Shown here piece after piece: positions 1 to 15,120 of a stretch of DNA of 56,929 bases (positions within the stretch are counted from its first letter, which is position 1; each line of letters opens with the position of its first letter). A program made the position numbers and the translations under genes. A model generated the notes under the pieces. That model did not search any database and had not been told where the DNA came from. It worked only from the letters and a program-made list of their open reading frames with translations. This DNA comes from Phycisphaerae bacterium. Its GTDB lineage: Bacteria; Planctomycetota; Phycisphaerae; UBA1845; PWPN01. Where the stretch lies: assembly GCA_012729395.1 (NCBI GenBank), contig JAAYDF010000077.1, positions 1 through 56,929 of the forward strand. Reading direction: 5' to 3'.

Positions 1-117
1 ACGCGGCTGTTCATCGACAATGCCGAAGTGCCCAACCTGCTCCGGCATCCGCCTGACTCATCCGGCCGCCGCAGCGTCTCACTACCCTGGCGCCGATTGG
101 TGTTTCCCGGCCTATGA
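1..117 (+). CDS. C-terminal end of an unidentified protein (5' truncated by window)
   Basis: Frame 1 is open from the first base to a TGA at 115-117 and encodes the last 38 residues of a protein, beginning TRLFIDNAEVPNLLR and ending in LVFPGL. The stop overlaps the ATG of the next gene (ATGA at 114-117), the usual sign of translational coupling and the main reason to believe this frame. The tail is too short to assign a family. From its neighbours it is probably another polysaccharide-biosynthesis gene, but that is inference only. Confidence 0.55.
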   Translation, partial: TRLFIDNAEVPNLLRHPPDSSGRRSVSLPWRRLVFPGL

Positions 118-1322
118 TCGTACTCTCAGACAACCCCTCCTCTGCCGACTCCCCGGCGACACTCGCACGAAGCGACCGTATCAACGTCCTCCTGCTCATC
201 AGCACACTCGAGTACGGCGGTGCTCAGCGGCAAGTGATCGAGCTAGCCAATCACCTCGACCCGCAGCGATTCAATGTGGCGGTGTGTAGCCTTCTGGATT
301 ACGTGCCGCTAGCCGACCAGTTGCGCGAGCGCGAACACCGACTGCACATCGTCCGTAAGCTATACAAGCTCGATTTCACGGTAGTCCCCAGACTCGCCAT
401 GCTCTGCAAGCAACTGCGAATTGATATTCTGCATAGCTACTTGTTCGACGCGGACATCGCCGCCCGGCTGGCTGGCCGGCTGGCCCGTACGCCGGTCATC
501 ATCAACTCTGAGCGCAATACCGACTACCACCTCAAGCACCGGCATTTGGCCGCTTACGCCATCACCAAATCCGCTGTCACGCTCGTTGTGGCCAACTCGA
601 ACGCCGGCGCCGATTTCAACAGCCGCCGCTTGCGCATGGATCGCTCTCGCTACCGGGTGGTACACAACGGCGTGGATCTTGCCCGGTTTCGCCAACAGCC
701 GGAGATCGGGCAGAGCACGAGACGGGATCTTGGCATCTCCCCTGCTGAGCCGGTCGTGGGCATGTTCGCCAGCTTCAAGCAACAGAAGAACCATGCCCTG
801 TTCTTCCGCGCCGTCGCCCGTGTCCTCAAGGCAATCCCGCAAACTCGAATCCTCTTGGTCGGCGATACACTGCATGGAGCAATGAACCGATCAGACGTCT
901 ACAAGGCACAAATGACAGAGCTCATGGATGAACTCGGCATTCGTGAGCGATGCCTACGGGTGGGCAATCGCCGCGACGTCGAGCGTCTTTACCAGGCCTG
1001 CGACGTGACCGTCTTGTCCTCACTCTATGAAGGCACGCCCAACGTCCTGCTGGAGTCAATGGCTTGTGGCGTGCCAGTGGTGGCGACGGACGTGGCCGAC
1101 AACGCCTACGTCGTCCCCGACAGTCGCTGTGGCTACGTCGTCCCGTTACACGATGAGGCCGGCTTGGCCGATCGTATCTCCCGCCTTCTGACCAATGCCG
1201 ATCTGCGTACGACTCTGGGCCGGCAAGCACGCTCGTGGGTCGAGCAGGAGTTCTCGATCCCCGTCATGGTGGCCAAGATGGCCCGCGTCTACGATGACGC
1301 CATCACCGCAACCGGCGTATGA
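114..1322 (+). CDS. GT4-family glycosyltransferase
   Basis: A 402-residue GT-B fold glycosyltransferase of family GT4, expected to move a sugar from a nucleotide-sugar donor to a lipid-linked or growing polysaccharide acceptor at the cytoplasmic face of the membrane. The N-terminal half has the acceptor-side GT4 signature EYGGAQRQ (residues 33-40). The C-terminal half has the donor-binding E-x7-E motif (E306 and E314, in EGTPNVLLE), followed by the typical ACGVPVVATDV. The length is normal for the family. There is no signal peptide or clear transmembrane segment. The ATG overlaps the preceding stop codon, so it is probably translated together with the upstream gene. Donor and acceptor cannot be read from sequence. 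Confidence 0.9.
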   Translation: MIVLSDNPSSADSPATLARSDRINVLLLISTLEYGGAQRQVIELANHLDPQRFNVAVCSLLDYVPLADQLREREHRLHIVRKLYKLDFTVVPRLAMLCKQLRIDILHSYLFDADIAARLAGRLARTPVIINSERNTDYHLKHRHLAAYAITKSAVTLVVANSNAGADFNSRRLRMDRSRYRVVHNGVDLARFRQQPEIGQSTRRDLGISPAEPVVGMFASFKQQKNHALFFRAVARVLKAIPQTRILLVGDTLHGAMNRSDVYKAQMTELMDELGIRERCLRVGNRRDVERLYQACDVTVLSSLYEGTPNVLLESMACGVPVVATDVADNAYVVPDSRCGYVVPLHDEAGLADRISRLLTNADLRTTLGRQARSWVEQEFSIPVMVAKMARVYDDAITATGV

Positions 1323-1519: not shown

Positions 1520-3007
1520 ATGACCGATCAGCTTCATGATTCCCGGGTCGCGATCGCTCACGGCCTAGCCGAGTACCCCAGAGTGCCGCCCTACAGCCCG
1601 AATGAGCGTTACCCGGAGTATCCGTTCAGCGTCATTCAAAGCGAGCCCAATCCTGCCTACGCCTTGGTGCGCGAAAGCCTGCGCCTGCTTGAGCTTGACA
1701 AGGATTCCTTCGATACGGCCCGCTGGAATCCATTCCGCGATCTGATTCAGCCCGGCCAGACCGTCGTGCTGAAACCCAACCTGGTGCGTGACCGGCGTGA
1801 GACCCTGCCAGGACTCGATGATTGCACCATCACTCACGGCTCGGTCATCCGGGCCGTGCTCGACTACGTCTACATCGCCCTCGCCGGGCGCGGTCGCATC
1901 GTCATCGCCGACGCCCCGATGGATGATGCCGACTGGCAGGCCCTGGACCACATCACCGGCCTGAGCGCCATGGCTGCCTTCTATCGGCAACACGCCGACT
2001 TCAACATCGAGATCATCGACCTGCGGCTGCATCGCGACCACAAGATCAACGGCCTCATCGTCGGCCGCGATAATCTGCCCGGCGACCCGGCCGGCTACGT
2101 CTGGGTGGATCTCGGCGAGCATTCAGCATTCCACGAAATCGAGCACCTCTGCCACAAGCTCTACGGTGCCACGTACGACGTCGCGGAAACGCGGCGACAC
2201 CACACCGGTGGCCGGCATGAGTACCTGGTTTCGAAGACCGTCCTCGGTGCCGACTGCGTCATCGAAATCCCGAAACTCAAGACGCACCAGAAAACGGGTA
2301 TCACATGCAACCTCAAGCTCCTCGTCGGTATCGTCGGGGATAAGGACTGCATCGCCCACTACCGGCTCGGCGTACCCGCGGACGGCGGCGACCAATTCGC
2401 CGGCAACTCGCCTCGCGAGCGGATCGAACGCGGCACACTGGGCCTGTTCAAACGTGTGTTCCCCCGACTCGGCCCGCTCCGCCGCGCCGTCGCCCGCCCC
2501 GCAAGGCGCGTGGGCGAGCTCCTTTTCGGCCGGACCGGCGACGTCGTCCGATCCGGCAACTGGCACGGCAATGATACCGCTTGGCGCATGACCCATGATC
2601 TCATGCGCATCGTTCTTTATGCGGACAAGGTTGGCTGCCTCCAACCCCGCCCTGCGCGCAGACTCTTCAGCGTCGTTGATGCCATCATCGCCGGTCAGGG
2701 CAATGGCCCGCTTGACGCAACCCCCTGCCGTATGAGTGCCATCCTCGGCGGCATGCAGCCCGCCGCGGTCGATCTGGTCTGTGCACGCTTAATGAACTTC
2801 GACGACGCCTCGATGCCTCTTCTGGCGAAAGCCTTCGACCAGCATCCCATGCCGTTGAGTACCGCCGGTCGCGAGACTGCGGTTCTAGGTCAGCTTCGCA
2901 TACCCCCGCCCGTCGGGGTAACCCTTCCGAGCCAGTGGCGGATATACGGTAGCTCGATGCAACAGAACGCATGCAGACCCTGCGCGAACCAGCAGGCCAC
3001 GCTATGA
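1520..3007 (+). CDS. DUF362-domain protein
   Basis: A 495-residue protein that I assign to the DUF362 family from its overall pattern: VVLKPNLVRDR near residue 80, VIADAPMDDADW near 135, the LGADCVIEIPKLKTHQKTG block near 245 and GDKDCIAHYRLG after it. DUF362 proteins are poorly characterised; some carry a C-terminal ferredoxin domain, but no CxxCxxC cluster is visible here. It has no signal peptide, so it is probably cytoplasmic. Its last codons overlap the following glycosyltransferase in an ATGA junction, which ties it to the exopolysaccharide locus. What it does there is unknown. The ATG at 1520 is the first good start after a 197-bp gap; the exact start is not certain. Confidence 0.8.
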   Translation: MTDQLHDSRVAIAHGLAEYPRVPPYSPNERYPEYPFSVIQSEPNPAYALVRESLRLLELDKDSFDTARWNPFRDLIQPGQTVVLKPNLVRDRRETLPGLDDCTITHGSVIRAVLDYVYIALAGRGRIVIADAPMDDADWQALDHITGLSAMAAFYRQHADFNIEIIDLRLHRDHKINGLIVGRDNLPGDPAGYVWVDLGEHSAFHEIEHLCHKLYGATYDVAETRRHHTGGRHEYLVSKTVLGADCVIEIPKLKTHQKTGITCNLKLLVGIVGDKDCIAHYRLGVPADGGDQFAGNSPRERIERGTLGLFKRVFPRLGPLRRAVARPARRVGELLFGRTGDVVRSGNWHGNDTAWRMTHDLMRIVLYADKVGCLQPRPARRLFSVVDAIIAGQGNGPLDATPCRMSAILGGMQPAAVDLVCARLMNFDDASMPLLAKAFDQHPMPLSTAGRETAVLGQLRIPPPVGVTLPSQWRIYGSSMQQNACRPCANQQATL

Positions 3008-4341
3008 ACCACGCCACGCCGATGTCTCCCGAGAGCCCGCCGCTGCAGGAACTCGGCACATTCCCATGGTGGAAGCGAACAGCAGCCTGGATCGCGGCTT
3101 GGGGACTGGTGGCCGGGGTCGGTCTAACCCTGCCCATAGCTTGGATCTTGAGCTGGTTTCTCAGGAGACGTCGGAATGCCACCCCACCCGGCGCATCTCG
3201 TGTCGTGGTCACGGGGATGTTTGCATCAGACGGGTGGGTAGCTGCCCACATCCGGCCAATCAGCCTGGCTCGCGGCTGTGGGCACGTCTGGGTGGTAACC
3301 GATCGCCCCTGGCTCGAGTTACCTCATGTAACCTACGCTTGCCCGCCCAAGAGACTGCAGCGGTACGCAGGCGGCAATCTGGCCCGGGCCTTCTGGCTTT
3401 TCCTGACAGTGCTACACACCCGCCCTCACGTCGTCGGCGGCTTCCACCTGCTCCCGAATGCTCTGTTTGCGCTGCTGGGCGCCCGGCTCGTGAAAGCCAA
3501 GGCAGTGTACTTCTGCGTAGGCGGATGGACCGAAATATGGGGAGGCGGAGCGCGTTCGGAGAATCGTCTTTTCAGGCTGCTCGGCAAGGACCGCCCGATG
3601 CTGCAACGGGCCCTGCTCGCCCTGGTCAACCGCGTCGATCTCATACTCACCATGGGGCATCGAGCCCGCCGCTTCCTGTCAGAGCAAGGCGTGACCTGCG
3701 CGATTGAGGTCATGTCCGGAGGCATTGATGCCCGGCAGTTCGCCGCTGTTTCCCGCCCTATTGCCCCGGAGTATGATCTTCTCTTCGTCGGCCGCCTGGT
3801 CCGAATCAAAAGACTGGACGTTCTTCTGCAGATCGCGGCGCGCGTCGGCAAGGCCAGACCCAACCTGCGCGTGGCCATTGTGGGTGACGGCCCTCTGCGA
3901 GATGAACTCGCCAGACTCACGCGGGAACTGGGGCTGGAGCAGAAGGTGTTCTTCGCCGGCCATCAAGACCGGATCTGCGAATGGCTTCAACGGACACGGC
4001 TGTTCGTGCTGACCTCGGACAGTGAAGGGCTACCTCTCTCGGTGCTCGAGGCGATGATGGCCGGCGTGCCTTGCGTGGTCTCTGACGTCGGGGATCTGGC
4101 CGATGCGATTCTCAACGGGAAGAATGGATGGCGTGTGCCGAGGCGAGATCCGGACGCTTTCGCCGAGGCCATTCTTGCGCTGCTGACCGATGAGAACCTG
4201 TACAGTACCTGCCGGTCGGCCGCTCGGCAGGCGGCAATGAACTACACGGTCGAAACAATGAGCGAGCATTGGGACCGCATTCTTGACACTTGGCCCAGCC
4301 GGCAGGCGATCCGGGCACCCGTCGGTTTCATGGCCGGATAA
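3004..4341 (+). CDS. Membrane-anchored GT4-family glycosyltransferase
   Basis: A 445-residue GT4 glycosyltransferase. I chose the ATG at 3004 because it forms an ATGA overlap with the DUF362 stop; an in-frame ATG at 2971 would add 11 residues with no family support. A hydrophobic stretch at about residues 30-55 (AAWGLVAGVGLTLPIAW) should anchor the enzyme in the inner membrane. The C-terminal donor-binding half carries LLFVGRLVRIKRLDVLL and the E-x7-E motif (E341 and E349, in EGLPLSVLE), followed by MAGVPCVVSDVG. It probably adds a sugar to the lipid-linked repeat unit made by this locus. The adjacent CapK-like gene starts five bases after its stop, which suggests one operon. Confidence 0.88.
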   Translation: MNHATPMSPESPPLQELGTFPWWKRTAAWIAAWGLVAGVGLTLPIAWILSWFLRRRRNATPPGASRVVVTGMFASDGWVAAHIRPISLARGCGHVWVVTDRPWLELPHVTYACPPKRLQRYAGGNLARAFWLFLTVLHTRPHVVGGFHLLPNALFALLGARLVKAKAVYFCVGGWTEIWGGGARSENRLFRLLGKDRPMLQRALLALVNRVDLILTMGHRARRFLSEQGVTCAIEVMSGGIDARQFAAVSRPIAPEYDLLFVGRLVRIKRLDVLLQIAARVGKARPNLRVAIVGDGPLRDELARLTRELGLEQKVFFAGHQDRICEWLQRTRLFVLTSDSEGLPLSVLEAMMAGVPCVVSDVGDLADAILNGKNGWRVPRRDPDAFAEAILALLTDENLYSTCRSAARQAAMNYTVETMSEHWDRILDTWPSRQAIRAPVGFMAG

Positions 4342-4346
4342 CCTCC

Positions 4347-7298
4347 ATGAAACTCGCCCTGTCCAGAAAGAACCTCTGGGAGCGTTGCCCCCGGCCGATG
4401 AGAAGGCTTGCGGGTGCGGCTCTGACCCCGATCCCACTGCCATGGCTGCTTGGCGGGCGGTTCCGCCAAGCCTACCAGTTTGTGCAGGAGTCCCAGTGGT
4501 GGGATGAGGAACGTATCAAGCAGTATCAACTTGAGCGGCTCAAGGCCATCGTGACTCTCGCCTATGAGCGCAGTGACTTCTACAGGGAGCTGTTTCAGGG
4601 CGTGGGATTCGAACCGGGCGATCTGAAGCAGCCTGCCGACCTGCTTGGTCTGCCTCGAATCGACAAGCACATCGTGCGAGAGAATCTCCACCGGATGCTC
4701 ACACAGCCAAGCACCCTTCCTTCCGTGGACTACATGTCTACGAGCGGGACTGGCGGAACGCCGCTGAGCTTCTACATCGGCGCGGATCGGTCGGCGGTGG
4801 AGTTCGCACATCTGGCCAGCTCGTGGGCGCGGGTTGGATATCGTCCGGGTATGCGTCTGGCCGTTCTGCGCGGGCAAATCGTCCGCCCCGATCGTTCCGG
4901 GCTGTATTGTCAGTATGATCCATTGCTTCGCAGCTACACGTACAGCAGCTTCCATCTGACCGCGGAGCACATGCACAGGTACGTCAGCCACATGCACAGG
5001 GTCCGCCCGGATTACCTGCACGCCTACCCCTCGTCGGCTTTCACGCTCGCCCGCTTCATGCATGAGAACAACCTCTCATTCCCCTCAAGCGTGAAGGGTG
5101 TGCTGATGGAGTCCGAACCGGTTTACCCGCATCAGAGGAGCTTCATCGAAGAGCACTTTCCTCTGCGGGCTTACGCATCCTACGGCCACACGGAGAAGCT
5201 GGTCCTTGCCGCTGAATGCGAGTACTCGACGCACTACCATGCCTGGCCCACCTATGGTTTCCTCGAGCTGCTCGGGCCGACCGGACAGCCGGTCGAGCCT
5301 GGGCAGGTGGGCGAAATCGTGGGTACCGGATTCATCAACCGTGTCGTGCCCTTCATCCGCTACCGGACTGATGACTACGCCGAGCTTGCGGGCACCGGCT
5401 GTCCCCATTGTGGGCGGCAGCACATCTGTCTGAGCCGGATTGTCGCCCATCGCTCTCAGGAGTTCCTGGTTGCTCAAGACGGCCGGCCGATCATGGCTTG
5501 GGCCGTGCTCAATATGCACGATGAAACCTTCGACGGTATCACCCAATTCCAGTTCGTCCAGAAGACGCCCGGCCGGGCGGAGTTGTTCCTGGTACCCGGC
5601 TCACACGGGCCACGTTATGACCTGAGCCGCATCCAGGCTCATCTCTCCACAAAACTCGGCGGGCAGTTGGAAATCGCACTGCAGGTCTGCCCGAACATCC
5701 CCCCCAACCCGTCCGGCAAGAAGCCTTTGATTCGCCAGCAAATCCCCCATATTGATGATTTACTGGCCACCTACCATACCACAGGAGGCGACACGACTCC
5801 CATTACCCAAGTCGCGAGCAACAGCCCCGAAGAGCGGGACACCGCTTATCTCTGTCCGCATCCCCATGCCCTGAGGAGTCGCCGCGCATGGTCGCGCAAG
5901 AACCTGTGGGAACGCCTACCCGGCTCCGGCACAACTCGTTGGACCCGCGCTCTGGGGCTGATTCCACCCAGATTCTGGCTTGGTACCCGATTTCGCAAGC
6001 ACCTCCGGCTGCTCAACGACGCTCAATGGTGGTCCGCCACGCAGAACAGCGAGTACCAACTGGCCCAGTTGCGACGAATCTGCACGCTTGCCTACCTGCG
6101 CACACCTTACTACCGCAGGTTCTTTGACGCGGCCGGCGTGGATCCCCAGAGCATCAAGAGTCTGAATGATCTCTGCGGATTGCCTACCATTGACAAGGAA
6201 GTCCTGCGCCGGCATCTGACGGCGATGTGCACGGTACCACCAACCTCTAAGCAGCTTGACCTGGTTTCAACCGGGGGGACTGGCGGACAGCCTTTTCACT
6301 TCTATGCGCCCGCCGGCCGTTCGGCCATAGAGTATGCCCACCTCGTGGCCAGTTGGGAACGGATTGGCTATCGACTCAACATGCCGCTCGTGGTACTCCG
6401 GGGCCGAGTAGTCCCTAAGAACCACCGTGGTTTCGAGCATGCTTACGACCCCGTCCTCCGACACCACCACTACAGTACTTTCGATCTGACCGACGAGTAT
6501 ATCCGCAGGGCGATCGACCACATTCGCACCCTGGGGCCGTGCTTCCTGCATGCCTATCCGTCATCCGCCGCAGTTGTGGCCCGCTGCGTCCAGAGGCTAG
6601 GCTTAACGTCGCCCGCCAACATCCACGGTATCATCGTTGAATCCGAGACTCTGTACCCCGAACAGCGAGAGCTGATCGAACGCACCTTCGGGACACGGCT
6701 GTTCTCGTCCTACGGACATTCGGAGAAGCTGATACTCGCCACCGAATGCGAGCACTCCAATGACTATCACGTTTGGCCCACATACGGCTTCCTCGAGCTG
6801 CTGGACGAGCAGGGACACCGGGTTACCACGCCGGGGCAGCGGGGCGAGATCGTCGGCACGGGCTGGATCAACGATGTGGTACCCTTCATTCGCTACCGCA
6901 CCGGCGACTACGCCGAGTACGTGGGCGAGGGCTGCTCGAAATGCGGTCGGCAGCACACGATCATTCGCCGGGTTGAAGGTCGCTGGCCGGCCGGCGATCT
7001 CGTGGCACAAGACGGGTCGCTCATCTCGATGACCTCGCTGAACGTGCACGATGACACCTTCACCCGCGTTCAACGGTTTCAGTTCTACCAGGATACGCCC
7101 GGCCAAGCCGTGCTCAAGGTTGTTCCGGCCATTGGTTTCGGCGACGAAGACCGGCAAAGGATCGCTCACAGCCTCGGCGCCAGGCTTGCCGGTCGCATCG
7201 ATCTTGCCATCGAACTCGTGCAGACGATTCCACTTTCGCCTCGCGGCAAATCCATCTATGTGGACCAACGCATCCACCTGGAGTCAGCCCCGAGGTAA
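4347..7298 (+). CDS. Tandem CapK/PaaK-like adenylate-forming protein (two fused homologous domains)
   Basis: A 983-residue protein made of two full-length copies of the CapK/phenylacetate-CoA-ligase-like fold (COG1541 type), which normally occurs as one domain of about 450 residues. Copy 1 spans about residues 6-485 and copy 2 about 512-983; each begins with the same SRKNLWER. Both have the nucleotide-binding loop (STSGTGGTP / STGGTGGQP), SYGH(T/S)EKL and a CxxCGRQH pair. Copy 2 keeps the family's YRTGD and EGR motifs, while copy 1 reads YRTDD and AHR at those places, so copy 1 may be catalytically weak. CapK homologues are typical of capsule and exopolysaccharide loci, but their substrate is generally unknown. 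The ATG at 4347 was preferred over 4290 because the earlier start overlaps the upstream gene by 52 bases and lies before the duplicated SRKNLWER. Confidence 0.88.
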   Translation: MKLALSRKNLWERCPRPMRRLAGAALTPIPLPWLLGGRFRQAYQFVQESQWWDEERIKQYQLERLKAIVTLAYERSDFYRELFQGVGFEPGDLKQPADLLGLPRIDKHIVRENLHRMLTQPSTLPSVDYMSTSGTGGTPLSFYIGADRSAVEFAHLASSWARVGYRPGMRLAVLRGQIVRPDRSGLYCQYDPLLRSYTYSSFHLTAEHMHRYVSHMHRVRPDYLHAYPSSAFTLARFMHENNLSFPSSVKGVLMESEPVYPHQRSFIEEHFPLRAYASYGHTEKLVLAAECEYSTHYHAWPTYGFLELLGPTGQPVEPGQVGEIVGTGFINRVVPFIRYRTDDYAELAGTGCPHCGRQHICLSRIVAHRSQEFLVAQDGRPIMAWAVLNMHDETFDGITQFQFVQKTPGRAELFLVPGSHGPRYDLSRIQAHLSTKLGGQLEIALQVCPNIPPNPSGKKPLIRQQIPHIDDLLATYHTTGGDTTPITQVASNSPEERDTAYLCPHPHALRSRRAWSRKNLWERLPGSGTTRWTRALGLIPPRFWLGTRFRKHLRLLNDAQWWSATQNSEYQLAQLRRICTLAYLRTPYYRRFFDAAGVDPQSIKSLNDLCGLPTIDKEVLRRHLTAMCTVPPTSKQLDLVSTGGTGGQPFHFYAPAGRSAIEYAHLVASWERIGYRLNMPLVVLRGRVVPKNHRGFEHAYDPVLRHHHYSTFDLTDEYIRRAIDHIRTLGPCFLHAYPSSAAVVARCVQRLGLTSPANIHGIIVESETLYPEQRELIERTFGTRLFSSYGHSEKLILATECEHSNDYHVWPTYGFLELLDEQGHRVTTPGQRGEIVGTGWINDVVPFIRYRTGDYAEYVGEGCSKCGRQHTIIRRVEGRWPAGDLVAQDGSLISMTSLNVHDDTFTRVQRFQFYQDTPGQAVLKVVPAIGFGDEDRQRIAHSLGARLAGRIDLAIELVQTIPLSPRGKSIYVDQRIHLESAPR

Positions 7299-7443: not shown

Positions 7444-8385
7444 ATGAATGATGTTCTCTCACAGACCCTCTCCAACGCACCGGATGATTTTTTGCGGCTC
7501 CTGCGCGCCTTGATGCATCTGCACAACGCCGGAGCCCGGCAACTGGACGCCGCTCGTCAGGAGGTCCAACGGTTGAATACCGAATGCGGCGACGGGTTGG
7601 CGCAGGCCCACAGGTTGGGCCTGGTGGATAGCGAGGATCCGGAGCATCTGGGCTTCACCGCCCTGGGGAAGCAGGTCTGCGACGGTGTGAAGCAATACGT
7701 GAACTGGCTCGACCACGCCGATGAGCTACCCATCGGCGTGCGTCCGGAAATGGTCAAGGGCAAGGAGATCCTCGATGTCGGGTGCGGAGTGGGCTGTGCT
7801 CTGCTGACCTTTGGTCGGCATGGAGCCGCCGGCCTGACCGGAGCCGACATGATGGCCACTTTCCCGGCGATGGCCCGCGTGTTCGCCGCTCGCCAGAAGC
7901 TCCAGGCGCCGCTCGTCGTTTTGGCCGACGGTGCCCGGCTGCCCTTCCCCGACCGCAGCTTCGATCTCGTGTTCTGCCGGTTGGCGATCAACTACATGCA
8001 CAGCGAGGACGCCTTGGCCGAGATGGCGCGTGTCGCCCGCGATGGAGCCGACTTGGTCATCTGCCTCAACATGCTTCGCTGGCATATGAAGACGATGCGG
8101 AAGCAGTTAAGTCGTTTGCAGTGGAAGGGACTGGCCTTCGACCTGTTTCGCATGGGCAATGGCCTGCTGCTCCATACTCTGCACCGCCAAATCACGCTCT
8201 CCTACGCCGGCCAGATGTTCGGTACGCACTCCCCAGTTTGGCATACGCCCTGGACGATGCGAAGACAACTGGCCCGTTGGAGCTTCGATTGCCTCTGGGA
8301 CAACGCCACTGAGCACGCCGACACACCCACCTTCCACGCCCGACGACGACCGCGGGAGACTACAATGGAGCATGACCACTCCTGA
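7444..8385 (+). CDS. Class I SAM-dependent methyltransferase
   Basis: A 313-residue protein with a Rossmann-type methyltransferase domain starting near residue 105. Motif I is EILDVGCGVG (D111 to G117), followed by an acidic post-I strand (TGADMM), the motif II region LPFPDRSFDLVFC and CRLAINYMHSEDALAEMARVARDG, the usual helix after it. The first 100 residues are mainly helical and may be a substrate or dimerisation cap. It lies between the CapK-like gene and the exosortase genes on the same strand, so it may methylate a sugar or lipid intermediate of the polysaccharide; the sequence does not prove this. The 145-bp gap before it holds no gene I can recognise. Confidence 0.83.
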   Translation: MNDVLSQTLSNAPDDFLRLLRALMHLHNAGARQLDAARQEVQRLNTECGDGLAQAHRLGLVDSEDPEHLGFTALGKQVCDGVKQYVNWLDHADELPIGVRPEMVKGKEILDVGCGVGCALLTFGRHGAAGLTGADMMATFPAMARVFAARQKLQAPLVVLADGARLPFPDRSFDLVFCRLAINYMHSEDALAEMARVARDGADLVICLNMLRWHMKTMRKQLSRLQWKGLAFDLFRMGNGLLLHTLHRQITLSYAGQMFGTHSPVWHTPWTMRRQLARWSFDCLWDNATEHADTPTFHARRRPRETTMEHDHS

Positions 8386-8540: not shown

Positions 8541-8556
8541 GCCCCCCGGCTTTGCC

Positions 8557-9279
8557 ATGAAGATACCGTCTCATCGGAAGTCCTACCACTTGGCCTCGGC
8601 CCTGGCTTTCGCTCTTCTCATAGCCAGCGGCGTCGGTTACCGCGTGCTGTGGGGACGCTACTTGGCGAAACCATCGCAACCCATGCTGCCAATCGGTACG
8701 CTGGGCCGTCTCCCAATGGACCTCGGCCCCTGGCTCGGCCGCGAACGCCCGCTCGATAAGTACATCGTCCGGCTAAGTGCCACCGACGATCACCTCAGCC
8801 GAGACTACGCCCTGCCCGACGGGCATAGCGCAGTCGCCGTCTTCATCGGGTATGGCGCACGACCGCGGGATCTCATGCCCCACCGTCCGGAGATCTGCTA
8901 TCCGGCCTCAGGCTGGGCGATGGAACGTGTTCGACAGGTTGAGATCACCGCCGCGGACGGGGCCACAATTCCCGCCGAGCTACATCACTTTCGCCGCACC
9001 GGTCTGCATACCCAGCGTGTCGCGACCCTGAGTTACTGGATGGTCGACGGCGAGTACTACCCCGATATCTCCGGCTTCCGGTGGCAGGTCTTGCGTCCCG
9101 GGGCCGCAAGCGACTATGTGATCCAGGTGCACATCTCCAGTTCGATCGAGACCGCATCCGACAAGGCCGACGATCTGGTCCGTTCCTTCGCTGCCGAGGC
9201 GGCTCCGGCCATCCGCCGCTTACTCGACCAGAGCGTTCAAAGGCACAATGATGATGCAGTCCCACCCAAGTCCCCCTGA
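8557..9279 (+). CDS. EpsI-family exosortase-associated protein
   Basis: A 240-residue EpsI-family protein. EpsI domains are found either fused to the C-terminus of exosortases or, as here, as a separate neighbour gene; their exact biochemical role is not settled. A signal-anchor lies at about residues 10-30 (HLASALAFALLIASGVGYRV), so the rest is probably periplasmic. The diagnostic EpsI block is PHRPEICYPASGW at residues 108-120, with the conserved His, Glu, Cys and Pro, followed by a long beta-rich stretch. I chose the ATG at 8557 because the in-frame start at 8506 lies inside the intergenic inverted repeat. Its end overlaps the exosortase gene by 32 bases, so the two are almost certainly co-translated. 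Confidence 0.87.
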   Translation: MKIPSHRKSYHLASALAFALLIASGVGYRVLWGRYLAKPSQPMLPIGTLGRLPMDLGPWLGRERPLDKYIVRLSATDDHLSRDYALPDGHSAVAVFIGYGARPRDLMPHRPEICYPASGWAMERVRQVEITAADGATIPAELHHFRRTGLHTQRVATLSYWMVDGEYYPDISGFRWQVLRPGAASDYVIQVHISSSIETASDKADDLVRSFAAEAAPAIRRLLDQSVQRHNDDAVPPKSP

Positions 9280-10225
9280 GGCCCAAGCCCTTGAGCCAAT
9301 GAAACCAATCACCAAGCCATCTTCAGCAAGGAGTACCGGTCCCGAGCCCGATTGTTGCCTGTCGGCACGACTTGGCCGCTGGGCGATTCCCTGCATTCTG
9401 CTGGCCGCCCTGCTCTGGGCCTACTGGCCAACCGCCTACCGCCTGTCCAAGGAATGGAATAGCCAGGATGACTACTCCGTCGGGATGCTCGTGCCCTTCG
9501 CCGCCCTGTACCTGCTCTGGCAGGAACGACGGTTGCTCAACAGGTACTCGCCCAAGCCTGCCTGGGTGGCGGGGATCTGCTTCATTCTGGCCGCACAAGG
9601 CGTCCGGGCATTCGGGCTGATCGGGCTCTTTGATTCCATCGAACGCTACGCAATGGTCCTGACCCTGTGGGGCGTGGTCTTACTGACCACGGGATGGAGA
9701 ATCTTCTTCCGCACGTTCTGGGTCCTTGCCTTCCTTCTCCTGATGATCCCGCTCCCCGGTGCGGTCCACAATCGTATTGCCTACCCCTTGCAGACTGTGG
9801 CCACGGAGGGCGCCCTGGTAACCCTCGAAGTCATGGGAATCACTGTGGACCAGCACGGCCACGTTCTCGTGCTCAACGACAGCATCGAGGTCGCCGTCGC
9901 CGAGGCATGTAGTGGCCTGCGCATGCTGACCGCGTTCGTGGTAGTGGCAGCCTTCCTGGCCTATCTCGTTGACCGTCCGCCTTGGCAACGCATCGTCCTT
10001 CTCCTGTCCAGCCTCCCCGTCGCCATCATCTGCAACCTGATTCGCCTGGTTGTGACTTCGCTGCTCTGTCTCTTCGTGAGCGACAAGGTTGGGCGCAGCT
10101 TCTTCCATGACTTTGCCGGATTGACTATGATGCCTTTGGCAGTGCTCATGCTGCTTGGGGAATTGTGGATAATGTCCCTTCTCGTATACGAGCCCGAACG
10201 TGCCCGAACACAGCAACCAAGTTGA
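9248..10225 (+). CDS. Exosortase (transpeptidase-like integral membrane protein)
   Basis: A 325-residue polytopic membrane protein with the exosortase triad: Cys221 in EACSGLRML, Arg266 in CNLIRLV and His287 in FFHDFAG. Exosortases are predicted to cut PEP-CTERM-type C-terminal anchors from exported proteins, by analogy with sortases, and they co-occur with exopolysaccharide loci. About eight hydrophobic segments are visible between residues 45 and 315. The order here is unusual, with EpsI upstream and overlapping by 32 bases. I cannot assign an Xrt subclass from sequence alone. No protein in this window ends in a recognisable PEP-CTERM tail, so its substrates must be encoded elsewhere. A start at 9299 (MKPITK) is a possible alternative to 9248. 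Confidence 0.92.
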   Translation: MMMQSHPSPPEAQALEPMKPITKPSSARSTGPEPDCCLSARLGRWAIPCILLAALLWAYWPTAYRLSKEWNSQDDYSVGMLVPFAALYLLWQERRLLNRYSPKPAWVAGICFILAAQGVRAFGLIGLFDSIERYAMVLTLWGVVLLTTGWRIFFRTFWVLAFLLLMIPLPGAVHNRIAYPLQTVATEGALVTLEVMGITVDQHGHVLVLNDSIEVAVAEACSGLRMLTAFVVVAAFLAYLVDRPPWQRIVLLLSSLPVAIICNLIRLVVTSLLCLFVSDKVGRSFFHDFAGLTMMPLAVLMLLGELWIMSLLVYEPERARTQQPS

Positions 10226-10749: not shown

Positions 10750-13700
10750 GTGACCGCGCCCGGAGCCACTCAAACCACCCGCTTGAGAGCCCAGATCAAC
10801 GTGACCGTGGCGCTCGTTCTCGTCGCGGTAATCCTCCTCGTCACTGCCGGTTTCGCTGCAAGCTACTTCCTTCGCCGACTCGCAGTGGCTCGCGAAGCCC
10901 TGAGCCAGGGCCGAGCAGCCCTTGATGCCGGTGACTGGGAGAAGGCCACACCTCACCTTCGTCGCTACCTCACCAAGTACCCCAACGACACAGAGTGGCT
11001 GGCCCGCTACGCGGAAGCCAACTTGCGTGTCCGCCCCCCTACCCCCGAACGTGTAGGCCATGCCCTCGGTGCCTATCGGCGACTCTTCCGCCTCAAGCCG
11101 GATGACCGCCGAACGGTAGTCAAGTTGGCCACGCTCTACCGACTCATCCGTGACTTCAACGAGATGGCCTATGTCTGCCGCGAGTGGCTCACCCTTCACC
11201 CCGAAGACCTGGAGCTCACACTCTCGCTGGGCAAAGCTCTCGTCGCCCAGAAAAGACCCGATGAAGCCCGACTCGTGCTCGAGCCTCTGGCTGAGCAAAC
11301 TCCCCACGAACCGGAGGTCTTCGCCCTGCTGAGCAGCATCGCCCTGCAGGATCTGTCGCCCAATGGTATCGCCGCCGCTAAGCAATGGTTAGACGAAGGC
11401 ATTCAGCAGAACCCCACAGCGGCTGAACTGCTCGTTCATCGTGCTCGTCTCCACCAGACCCATCTCAACCTGCCAGAGGCAGCTCAGGCCGATCTGCAAG
11501 CCGCCACACAACTGCAACCCAGCGGCCCCTGGGTCCGCCTCATGATGTTTGATCTGCACATGACACGCGGCGAACTGGAGCAGGCTCAGGTTGATCTCGC
11601 GTTCGTGCAGTCGCTCGACGAAGCGGCTCTCGAACAAACCGAGGGCGAGGTGGCCGACCTCAAACTCGCGATCCTCAAGGCCGCCGCCAGTCTCTCCCTC
11701 AGGCAAGGCACAACAGAAGCCGGCATCGAGCTCGCCACACGGGCGCTGGCGGAACTGCAGGACTTCCGGTGGGTGGAGTTCCTGCCTGTCGCGGTTGATC
11801 TGTATCTCGCTGGCGGAAAGGCTGACCTCGCGGCCCAAGCGGTCCAGCACTATCGCCAGCAGCTCCAGTTACTGCCTGGGGTTGTCACTGCCGCCACCGA
11901 TCATCTCGCCATCCTTGACGCCTTGGTTGCCGCTGCCCAGACACGTCCCTACACCGTCATCAACCTGCTCGAACCGGTCGTCACCCGTCACCCGCGAGTA
12001 GACACCCCCTGGAAACTGCTGGCCCGAGCCTACGAAACGATTGGCCAACGTCGCCGGGCCCTGCATATCTGGGAGCAGTTCCTCACTCGCTGGCCCGACG
12101 ACCCGGAGGCCGTGGCCCGTGTGGTCAGCGCTTACATCGCTGAGCGGCGATGGAGCGACGCTCTCATGCTTGCCCGCAAGGCCGAACCCGCCATCCCCCA
12201 GGATCTCACGGACACACTCACCGAACTCAAGATGGCCCAGATCAAAGCCCGGGCGCTGGCCGTCGCCTACGAAAATGAACCGGCGGAAACCCTCGATGAC
12301 GTACTCCAGGAGTTGGACCGCCTGGCTGAAGCCCAAATCGGTTCCGCGGAGGTTCGCACCGTCCGGGCGTTCATCGCACTTTACCAGGACCATCCCGATG
12401 AAGCTGTCGCCCAGCTTCGCCAAGCCGTCGATGAGGCCGAGGATTCGCTGCCCCCTCTCATCCAGTTGGCGGACCTCCTTGCCCGACTGGGGCGACGCGA
12501 ACAGGCTGAAGAAACCATTCGCGAAGCCGTTGCCTCGCATCCGGACCTCGCGATTCCGCGTCTGGCCTTGGCTTACCTGCTGAGAACCGACGAGCGTCTG
12601 GAACAGGCCCGCGAGGTCCTCGAAGTCGCCGCCAATTCGCTCGGCAACGGCGAGAAAGCTCGGGTTGAGCGAGCACTCGGCCGACTTCTGTTAGGCACCG
12701 CCGATCGCGAGAGGGGAATAAACCTGCTCCGTAACCTGGCCGCCGCTGGAGCTGAAGACGCCCAGACTCGCCTCTATCTGCTCGCCCTTCCCGAAATCCA
12801 GGCTGCCCCAGAAGAACGCGACCGCCTGATTGTTGAACTACGTCGCATCGAAGGAGAACGTGGACTACGATGGCGAATCGAGCAGGCGAAAGCTTGGCTG
12901 CGCAGCTCACACGACACCGTTCGGCAGCAACACATCATCAGCCTGCTCCAGTGGTGTATGAACGAGGATCGAGAATGGGCCGAGCCGGTCGTCGTGCTCG
13001 GCAGCCTCTATGAACGCATTGGGCAAGACAATCTGGCCGAGGATACCTACCGCAGCTTCTTCAACCGCCAGCCGGTCAACCTCGAGGTTGCCGACCGCCT
13101 CCTCGCCCTACTTCAACGTCAGAACCGCTACAACGAGGCATGGAGCGTGCTTCGCCGATTGCCTGAGCCCATCATGAAAGCCAGCGCCCATCGCGCCTGG
13201 ATCGCCATTGCCTGCGAAGAGTACAACGACGCCATTGACGCCCTCCAGATGCGCGTCGACGCCAATCCCCATGATGCGGCTTCGCGGGCACTCCTTGCGC
13301 AGGTCATTTACGCCGACCGCCGTCAGGCAGAAACCGCCTTGCGACTTCTCGATGAAGCGTTGACGCTAAATCCAGACCTTACCCTCGCCGTATCGACCCG
13401 CGTATCGATCCTCCACAGCGAGGGCCGAGATGCCGATGTCGTGCCTTTTCTCGATGCCGAGGTCCAACGGCGTAACGACTTTCCCGCCTACCTCATCCGG
13501 GCCGAGTACCACGAGCTGGTCAAACGCCACGATCTCGCGGAACGCGATTACCTGCACCTCATCACTTTCGAGGACCAGATCGCCAAGAGCTATGAACTGC
13601 TTGGCAACTTCTACTTCCGCACCGGCAAACCCGACGAAGCCATGCAGGCATGGGAAACCGGGCTGCAAAGAGATCCAGGCAACGTCAACCTCCAAAGATC

Positions 13701-15120
13701 GCTCATCCGTCTCCTGCTGGCGACTGGCTCGCCCACCGATCGGCAACGCGGCAGAGTGCTTCTCGAAGACCTGCTCAAACGGCTCCCCAACGACCCCGAG
13801 CTACTCTACGAGCACGCCAGTACCCTGCTTCAAGACCGCCGATTGCCTTCAATTCAGGAGGCGACGAAGATCCTCGAACGCGTGGTCGCCCTTGACCCTC
13901 AGCGCGTTGTCGGCTGGATGCGTTTGATCGACCTGGCTCGCCGTCAAGGCGATAGTGATCGGGTGGCGCGTCTGGTCGCCAGCGCGATGGGCACCAACCC
14001 ACGCAGTACCGACTTATTGATGGCCCAGGCACAGATTGAGAAGGATGCAGGCCGTCTCCTGATCGCTCGCTCCTTCGCCCAACGCGTTCTCGAGGTGACT
14101 CCCGGCAGCGTGGTCGCTCGAACCTTTCTCGTAGACTTAGAGATCCAGGCCTCGCGATTGGAGTCCGCCGAGAAATTGGTCAATGAGGTTCTGCGTTTCG
14201 CTCCGGAAAATGAGGATGTGCAACTGGCCCGGGCTCAACTGCTCAACGCCAAATCTCAGCGATCGGAGGCCCTTCGCCATCTCGAGGCTTATCACGAAAC
14301 GCGGGCTGGCCGGCGGAGTATCGGCACCCTCCTCGCCATCGCCGAGATCCACCGCTTCGAAGGCAACCTCACCGAAGCCAGCAACGCTCTCGACCGCGCC
14401 GAGCAGATGGCCCCCACCGACCCCAAGGTCATCCTCGCCCGGCTGCGGTGGTACGCCGGCCAGCAACGCTACGACGACATGCTCGCCAGGCTCGCCATCC
14501 GCTGGGACAACGTCGCCGACGAGTCCACCGTCATTCTCACCGCCGCTTCCATGCTCGCCTACGCCGAAGAAGCTCGCCTCCTGCGCGAGAGCTTGAATCT
14601 CTTCAACCGTTACATCCAGCTCAACCCCGATAGCCTCGACGGCTTGCTCGGTGTCGCCCAAGTTGCCCAGAACCTGGGCGATCACCGGATGGCTGAAGAG
14701 GCCTATCTGCGCATCCTCGACATCTCCCCCAATCACCGCGAGACACTCAACAACTTCGCATGGCTCTTGGCTACAGAACTCGGCCAGGCCGAAGAGGGCC
14801 TTCGCCTGGCCAACCGGGGCATCGATCGATATCCAGAGTACCCATACCTTCTGGATACCCGAGCGATGATCCTGTTACGCCTTGATCGACTTGACCAGGC
14901 TCGACGTGACCTCGAACACTGTCTCAGTCAACCCGGCATCCAGCCCGATACCCAAGCCAGCGCCAGCCTCCACCTCGCCGAGGTTTCTGCCCGTCAAGAC
15001 AACCTGGATCAGGCACGCTCGTTCCTCGAACAGGCCACCCGGCTTGATCGTCGCCACAACTGCCTTTCCGCACGGCAACGAGCTCAAGCCGAAACACTTC
15101 TCCAGTCGCTCAACCAGTAG
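10750..15120 (+). CDS. Giant membrane-anchored TPR-repeat protein
   Basis: A 1456-residue protein starting at GTG 10750, one base after the previous stop. One N-terminal transmembrane helix (about residues 17-40, ALVLVAVILLVTAGFAASYF) is followed by about 1400 residues of helical repeats with TPR spacing, for example LSQGRAALDAGDWEKATPHL, LARAYETIGQRRRALHIWEQ, LGNFYFRTGKPDEAMQAWE and LNNFAWLLATELGQAEEGL. TPR arrays are protein-interaction scaffolds. Large TPR proteins such as PrsT are recurrent partners of exosortase systems, where they are thought to support polymer export or assembly. Here the array is probably periplasmic, anchored by the N-terminal helix. It is the last gene of the + strand locus and has no enzymatic domain that I can see. 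Confidence 0.88.
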   Translation: MTAPGATQTTRLRAQINVTVALVLVAVILLVTAGFAASYFLRRLAVAREALSQGRAALDAGDWEKATPHLRRYLTKYPNDTEWLARYAEANLRVRPPTPERVGHALGAYRRLFRLKPDDRRTVVKLATLYRLIRDFNEMAYVCREWLTLHPEDLELTLSLGKALVAQKRPDEARLVLEPLAEQTPHEPEVFALLSSIALQDLSPNGIAAAKQWLDEGIQQNPTAAELLVHRARLHQTHLNLPEAAQADLQAATQLQPSGPWVRLMMFDLHMTRGELEQAQVDLAFVQSLDEAALEQTEGEVADLKLAILKAAASLSLRQGTTEAGIELATRALAELQDFRWVEFLPVAVDLYLAGGKADLAAQAVQHYRQQLQLLPGVVTAATDHLAILDALVAAAQTRPYTVINLLEPVVTRHPRVDTPWKLLARAYETIGQRRRALHIWEQFLTRWPDDPEAVARVVSAYIAERRWSDALMLARKAEPAIPQDLTDTLTELKMAQIKARALAVAYENEPAETLDDVLQELDRLAEAQIGSAEVRTVRAFIALYQDHPDEAVAQLRQAVDEAEDSLPPLIQLADLLARLGRREQAEETIREAVASHPDLAIPRLALAYLLRTDERLEQAREVLEVAANSLGNGEKARVERALGRLLLGTADRERGINLLRNLAAAGAEDAQTRLYLLALPEIQAAPEERDRLIVELRRIEGERGLRWRIEQAKAWLRSSHDTVRQQHIISLLQWCMNEDREWAEPVVVLGSLYERIGQDNLAEDTYRSFFNRQPVNLEVADRLLALLQRQNRYNEAWSVLRRLPEPIMKASAHRAWIAIACEEYNDAIDALQMRVDANPHDAASRALLAQVIYADRRQAETALRLLDEALTLNPDLTLAVSTRVSILHSEGRDADVVPFLDAEVQRRNDFPAYLIRAEYHELVKRHDLAERDYLHLITFEDQIAKSYELLGNFYFRTGKPDEAMQAWETGLQRDPGNVNLQRSLIRLLLATGSPTDRQRGRVLLEDLLKRLPNDPELLYEHASTLLQDRRLPSIQEATKILERVVALDPQRVVGWMRLIDLARRQGDSDRVARLVASAMGTNPRSTDLLMAQAQIEKDAGRLLIARSFAQRVLEVTPGSVVARTFLVDLEIQASRLESAEKLVNEVLRFAPENEDVQLARAQLLNAKSQRSEALRHLEAYHETRAGRRSIGTLLAIAEIHRFEGNLTEASNALDRAEQMAPTDPKVILARLRWYAGQQRYDDMLARLAIRWDNVADESTVILTAASMLAYAEEARLLRESLNLFNRYIQLNPDSLDGLLGVAQVAQNLGDHRMAEEAYLRILDISPNHRETLNNFAWLLATELGQAEEGLRLANRGIDRYPEYPYLLDTRAMILLRLDRLDQARRDLEHCLSQPGIQPDTQASASLHLAEVSARQDNLDQARSFLEQATRLDRRHNCLSARQRAQAETLLQSLNQ

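Follow-up and report, generated by a model that had tools for sequence, protein, structure and literature searches.

In the window (the whole stretch of DNA that we analysed, 56,929 nucleotides), one gene is predicted to encode two ligases in tandem, and the locus raises the question of whether this fusion is genuine, whether both halves could work as enzymes and what they would do among the genes around them. The gene is one open frame of 983 aa, running from an ATG at 4347 to a stop at 7298. A TTG at 4290 could serve as an earlier start and lengthen the protein by 19 residues, but we prefer the ATG because the MKxALSRKNLWE encoded there is the start of the single-domain relatives. The parts of the gene are as follows.

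4347..7298, + strand: fused double ligase gene, a single open frame, with PF00501 above cut-off
4347..5756, + strand: copy 1, predicted PaaK/CapK-type adenylate-forming domain, residues 1-470, hinge type I-like (alignment, PaaK matches, AF2 model)
5757..5885, + strand: linker between the copies, 43 aa, without in-frame ATG, GTG or TTG (start-codon scan, codon composition)
5886..7295, + strand: copy 2, predicted PaaK/CapK-type domain, residues 514-983, hinge type II (alignment; groups with type II ligases, 100/98)

The two halves are identical at 221 of 465 aligned positions (47.5%) with only 3 gap positions, a similarity far above chance (E about 1e-138). Identity by codon position is 61/66/39%, as expected under constraint at the protein level. 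An earlier note on this DNA, made from the letters, had described two full-length homologous domains in one frame, and this description stands. All the motifs that it named were found, with SRKNLWER, the Gly-rich loop and CxxCGRQH occurring twice each and SYGHTEKL in one half matched by SYGHSEKL in the other; its YRTDD and AHR in copy 1 and YRTGD and EGR in copy 2 were likewise confirmed.

The gene lies in the order GT4, DUF362, GT4, double ligase, methyltransferase, EpsI, exosortase.

114..1322, + strand: GT4 glycosyltransferase (PF00534)
1520..3007, + strand: DUF362 protein, overlapping the next gene and found near the ligase in many relatives (PF04015)
2971..4341, + strand: GT4 glycosyltransferase, ending 5 bases before the ligase and fused to it elsewhere (Pfam, relatives' loci)
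7444..8385, + strand: SAM methyltransferase (PF08241)
8551..9279, + strand: EpsI, exosortase-associated (PF11984 and TIGR02914, both above cut-off)
9248..10225, + strand: exosortase (PF09721 and TIGR02602, both above cut-off)

The ligase belongs to an exosortase/exopolysaccharide (EPS) operon. The order GT4, DUF362, GT4, ligase matches relatives' loci, and a relative of the DUF362 protein, of the GT4b type or of both lies near the ligase in 35 of the 40 loci fetched, GT4 being a large family whose neighbour matches were counted at E < 1e-8; EpsI or exosortase genes are nearby in several. Partial phylogenetic profiling has already connected CapK with PEP-CTERM genomes (PMC1569441), and the CapK-annotated ligases of PEP-CTERM/exosortase EPS loci (NE2015, PMC1569441) resemble ours in general annotation and in the PEP-CTERM/exosortase link. 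No double-domain form is reported in that paper, and the likeness to NE2015 is one of annotation rather than of alignment. Our search for literature on exosortases together with an acyl-CoA ligase and an amidotransferase found nothing, and in the literature found, the role of the CapK-like ligase in exosortase-linked EPS operons is not established. Farther along the window, positions 10750-15120 encode a large TPR protein of 1456 aa that resembles PrsT of XrtA/PEP-CTERM systems, its PrsT-like NCBIfam score being 255.9 bits vs. a cut-off of 312.2.

A fused frame of this kind could arise if an assembly or sequencing error had joined two ordinary neighbouring genes. The assembly consists of 370 contigs and the same ligase-ligase fusion was seen in no second genome, both of which would agree with an artefact. 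Against it, codons 471-574 contain no in-frame ATG, GTG or TTG, so that the next possible start, at codon 575, lies about 60 residues inside the domain of copy 2. GC content by codon position runs smoothly across the 43-aa linker, and the gene order on both flanks agrees with that of relatives. With no start codon of its own for copy 2 and a smooth codon composition, the fusion is not explained by a stop lost between two ordinary genes; one stop-removing error would leave copy 2 with no start, and an artefact would thus need more than one error. The frameshift or missing stop that the earlier note had named as its possible undoing is not supported, and we regard an artefact as very improbable. 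The fusion of two ligases in one chain is confirmed as real.

Both halves carry the P-loop, YGxTE, A7 Asp, A8 Arg and A10 Lys that served as the membership test for PaaK/CapK-type ANL ligases. The Pfam AMP-binding family PF00501 scores 36.6 bits vs. a cut-off of 29.9 for the whole protein, the matched stretch lying inside copy 1. Among NCBIfam models, the best matches of both halves are the DVU_1553 family AMP-dependent CoA ligase (NF045666; 121 and 106.2 bits for the two halves, cut-off 300) and FlxY (NF053551; 105 and 103 bits, cut-off 520), all far below the curated cut-offs, and the PaaK equivalog TIGR02155 gives 79.6 and 81.7 bits (cut-off 646.3). On these profile scores, both halves are PaaK-like, not PaaK itself. 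Among solved structures, the sequence matches are BT_0428 (4R1L) and PaaK1/PaaK2, the match to 4R1L being 101 bits for copy 1 vs. 86 bits for copy 2. An AlphaFold (AF2) model of copy 1, built from an alignment of five sequences and with a mean pLDDT of 73.5, adopts the PaaK fold (Foldseek E 3e-25 to 4r1m; VIA Z 26.6 to 4rvo), a BT_0428 PaaK-type ligase being the closest structure; for copy 2 the fold was assigned by sequence only (E 2.5e-23 to 4r1l). Each half is thus predicted to be a PaaK/CapK-type adenylate-forming domain of the ANL superfamily, able to form an acyl-AMP. The PaaK ligases (BT_0428, 4R1L/4RVO; Burkholderia cenocepacia PaaK1 and PaaK2, 2Y27/2Y4O) have the fold, P-loop, YG.TE, YRTxD, hinge Arg and A10 Lys in common with the double ligase. 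Unlike it, they belong to the phenylacetate pathway rather than an EPS operon, and the solved structures are single-domain chains of ~440 aa, homodimers in the case of PaaK1/2, vs. two domains per chain here.

From the differences in YRTDD and AHR, the earlier note had judged copy 1 apparently degenerate at its ATP contacts. The relevant motifs lie at the following positions, all placed by the ligase-domain alignment, in the case of copy 1 A7 and A8 with the near-invariant columns and for A7 also with the solved PaaKs.

4737..4763, + strand: copy 1 P-loop (A3), STSGTGGTP
5178..5201, + strand: copy 1 A5, SYGHTEKL
5361..5375, + strand: copy 1 A7, YRTDD, with G342D and the ribose-binding D343 retained
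5445..5462, + strand: copy 1 A8/hinge, AHRSQE, with G367A and the Arg retained
5712..5720, + strand: copy 1 A10, SGK, with the catalytic Lys retained
6267..6293, + strand: copy 2 P-loop (A3), STGGTGGQP
6894..6908, + strand: copy 2 A7, YRTGD
6975..6983, + strand: copy 2 A8/hinge, EGR
7242..7250, + strand: copy 2 A10, RGK

The judgement was not borne out. In an alignment of 59 ligase domains, copy 1 retains the core catalytic residues: the P-loop and SYGHTEK are present, as are the YRTxD Asp, the Arg of the hinge and the SGK Lys. In A7 and A8 an Asp and an Arg, respectively, contact ribose, and the Lys of A10 serves catalysis (PMC8388817). The residue changed in YRTDD is the Gly at position 342 and not the conserved Asp. 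At the equivalent position the solved PaaKs have Arg (YRTRD in 4R1L, 2Y27 and 2Y4O); G797, a close relative that is unfused and whose operon is intact, has Ser; and relatives farther away have Met, Arg or Ala. AHRSQE differs by a G-to-A replacement from GHRxQE, which is the hinge that most relatives have, and position 367 is Ser in G339. The hinge of copy 2, EGRWPxG, is of a second type (GRWPxG), and the comparison of AHR with EGR had therefore run across types.

These residues also bear on the earlier note's proposal of a regulatory or acceptor-binding half, in which copy 1 would be a pseudo-enzyme with no role beyond stabilizing or regulating copy 2 or holding the acceptor. Its terminal branch measures 1.15 vs. 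a median of 0.5, about twice as fast, and over 51 close relatives it deviates at 5 of 65 near-invariant positions (H197Y, G220R, D310G, G342D and G367A), including one in A7 and one in the hinge; exact YRTDD occurs in none of the relatives examined. Given this long branch and these changes, copy 1 may have lost or altered its activity. Against a pseudo-enzyme stand the retained catalytic core, the other residues found at 342 and 367, the larger deviations at near-invariant positions in two other proteins (G316, 8 of 67; G339, 6 of 68) and the closer match of copy 1 than of copy 2 to a solved PaaK. We therefore consider a pseudo-enzyme unlikely: copy 1 has diverged, but its residues as aligned give no indication of lost function. 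A functional split between the two halves is possible.

The halves need not be products of one duplication. In the maximum-likelihood tree, copy 2 falls inside the type II ligase clade (support 100/98) and copy 1 outside it with the long-branched G316, leaving the halves unpaired. A recent tandem duplication is disfavoured by this tree, yet a sister relation of the halves was not rejected by the AU test (p 0.159) and their pairing is admissible. The "tandem duplication" of the earlier note is accordingly doubtful in its history, and a history in which the gene duplicated and copy 1 then changed fast is an alternative that the test did not reject. In the rooted tree copy 1 appeared as an early branch of the subfamily, a placement that we took as probable long-branch attraction. 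QE-type hinges occur in the outgroups G278 and G329, the latter having NMHDDTF as well, so the form seen in copy 1 looks ancestral. The origin that appears to fit best is a joining of two ligase types, GHRxQE and GRWPxG, in which two ligase genes of one operon, one of the older GHRxQE type and one of the GRWPxG type, were probably joined in frame. In G286, type I and type II ligases are separate genes ~2 kb apart in one locus (L054, 323-1762 and 3874-5361, with DUF362 near), an unfused counterpart of the double ligase, and G344 carries both types on two contigs.

Of 397 genomes sampled from the class, where the best four candidates per genome were scored, 53 carried the ligase subfamily; it was also present in 42 of 114 genomes of the order, where all candidates were scored, and in 11 of 89 genomes of another family. 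A second ligase-ligase fusion was found at none of the family, order, class (best four candidates per genome) or phylum levels, nor in five further family or order groups or the named genome collection, and the viral_contigs search gave no relative of the ligase. The earlier note had proposed looking for the same fusion near exosortase genes; the fusion here does adjoin such genes, and two ligases in one frame were seen in none of the other genomes searched. Fusions of the ligase to other operon genes were found in 13 other genomes.

GT4-ligase: G011, G339, G230, G261, G028 and G411
DUF362-GT4-ligase: G211 (L057, 6155-10495), one 1447-aa frame corresponding to three separate adjacent genes in the window
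Asn-synthase-like amidotransferase-ligase: G348 (L055, 775-4290) and G165 (L056, 6623-10138), 1172 aa in both
SAM methyltransferase, N-terminal to the ligase: G312, G292, G272 and G281 (L062, L063, L065 and L066)

With 11 of the 13 fusion genomes in the tree, the fusions to other operon partners need at least 6-7 changes. The GT4, amidotransferase and methyltransferase fusions of the same class share with the double ligase an orthologous C-terminal ligase domain and a similar EPS operon, but their N-terminal partner is another operon enzyme and not a second ligase, and the other ligases of exosortase/EPS operons searched in the class have one ligase domain per chain. The double-ligase architecture is thus so far unique among the genomes searched, and fusions between operon genes are frequent in its family. 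The recurrent in-frame fusions, to glycosyltransferase, DUF362, amidotransferase, methyltransferase or a second ligase, tie the ligase to one pathway, and we regard this wider pattern as the more useful finding. It suggests that the ligase acylates or amidates the sugar made by the adjacent GT4 enzymes.

Our main reading, to which we give a probability of roughly 45%, is that the protein is a covalently linked pseudo-heterodimer of two complete PaaK/CapK-type domains, active in EPS synthesis. Each half would bind ATP and use it to turn a carboxylic acid into the activated acyl-AMP, and the acyl group would then pass to CoA, to a carrier or straight to a sugar unit from the neighbouring GT4 enzymes. 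The halves would pack on each other, since PaaK-type enzymes are generally homodimers: PaaK1 and PaaK2 are homodimers, dimerization is described as necessary for the N-domain, HCL is a dimer and in NatL2 a Lys is supplied by the other monomer (PMC8388817, PMC7204872). Monomers reported for some PaaK-type ligases (PMC8388817) count against such packing. Transfer to a hydroxyl without CoA is known for some PaaK-type enzymes (PMC8388817, PMC7204872); NatL2, which works as a dimer, moves the acyl group there from acyl-AMP (PMC7204872). NatL2 and AjiA1, both PaaK-like ester-forming ligases (6SIW, 6WUQ), share the PaaK fold with the double ligase but belong to small-molecule pathways, are single-domain chains and show ~20% identity in structural alignment.

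The halves could instead be independent ligases, both fully active but each on an acid of its own, brought together by operon gene fusion with no working contact. The ligase is elsewhere fused to unrelated partners (GT4, amidotransferase, methyltransferase), so fusion need not mean coupling, and the two hinge types coexist unfused in G286 and G344. PaaK-type enzymes, however, generally need a dimer partner (PMC8388817), so that each half is likely to contact the other or a second chain, and we hold full independence to be doubtful. Within the pseudo-heterodimer, labour might be divided in the decoration of the exosortase-linked exopolysaccharide, for example if one half activated the acid and the sugar acceptor or a second acid was bound by the other; we put this forward tentatively, as somewhat improbable in that specific form. 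The double ligase is a natural construct for asking whether two PaaK-type domains act as one unit.

Two further long frames were seen in relatives. In G252 (L069, 5204-8842), a distant ligase (35%) forms the C-terminus of a 1213-aa frame, the N-terminal part of which matches no Pfam family at 1e-8, and in G013 (L071, 2698-5682), GT4 and DUF362 share one 995-aa frame without the ligase.
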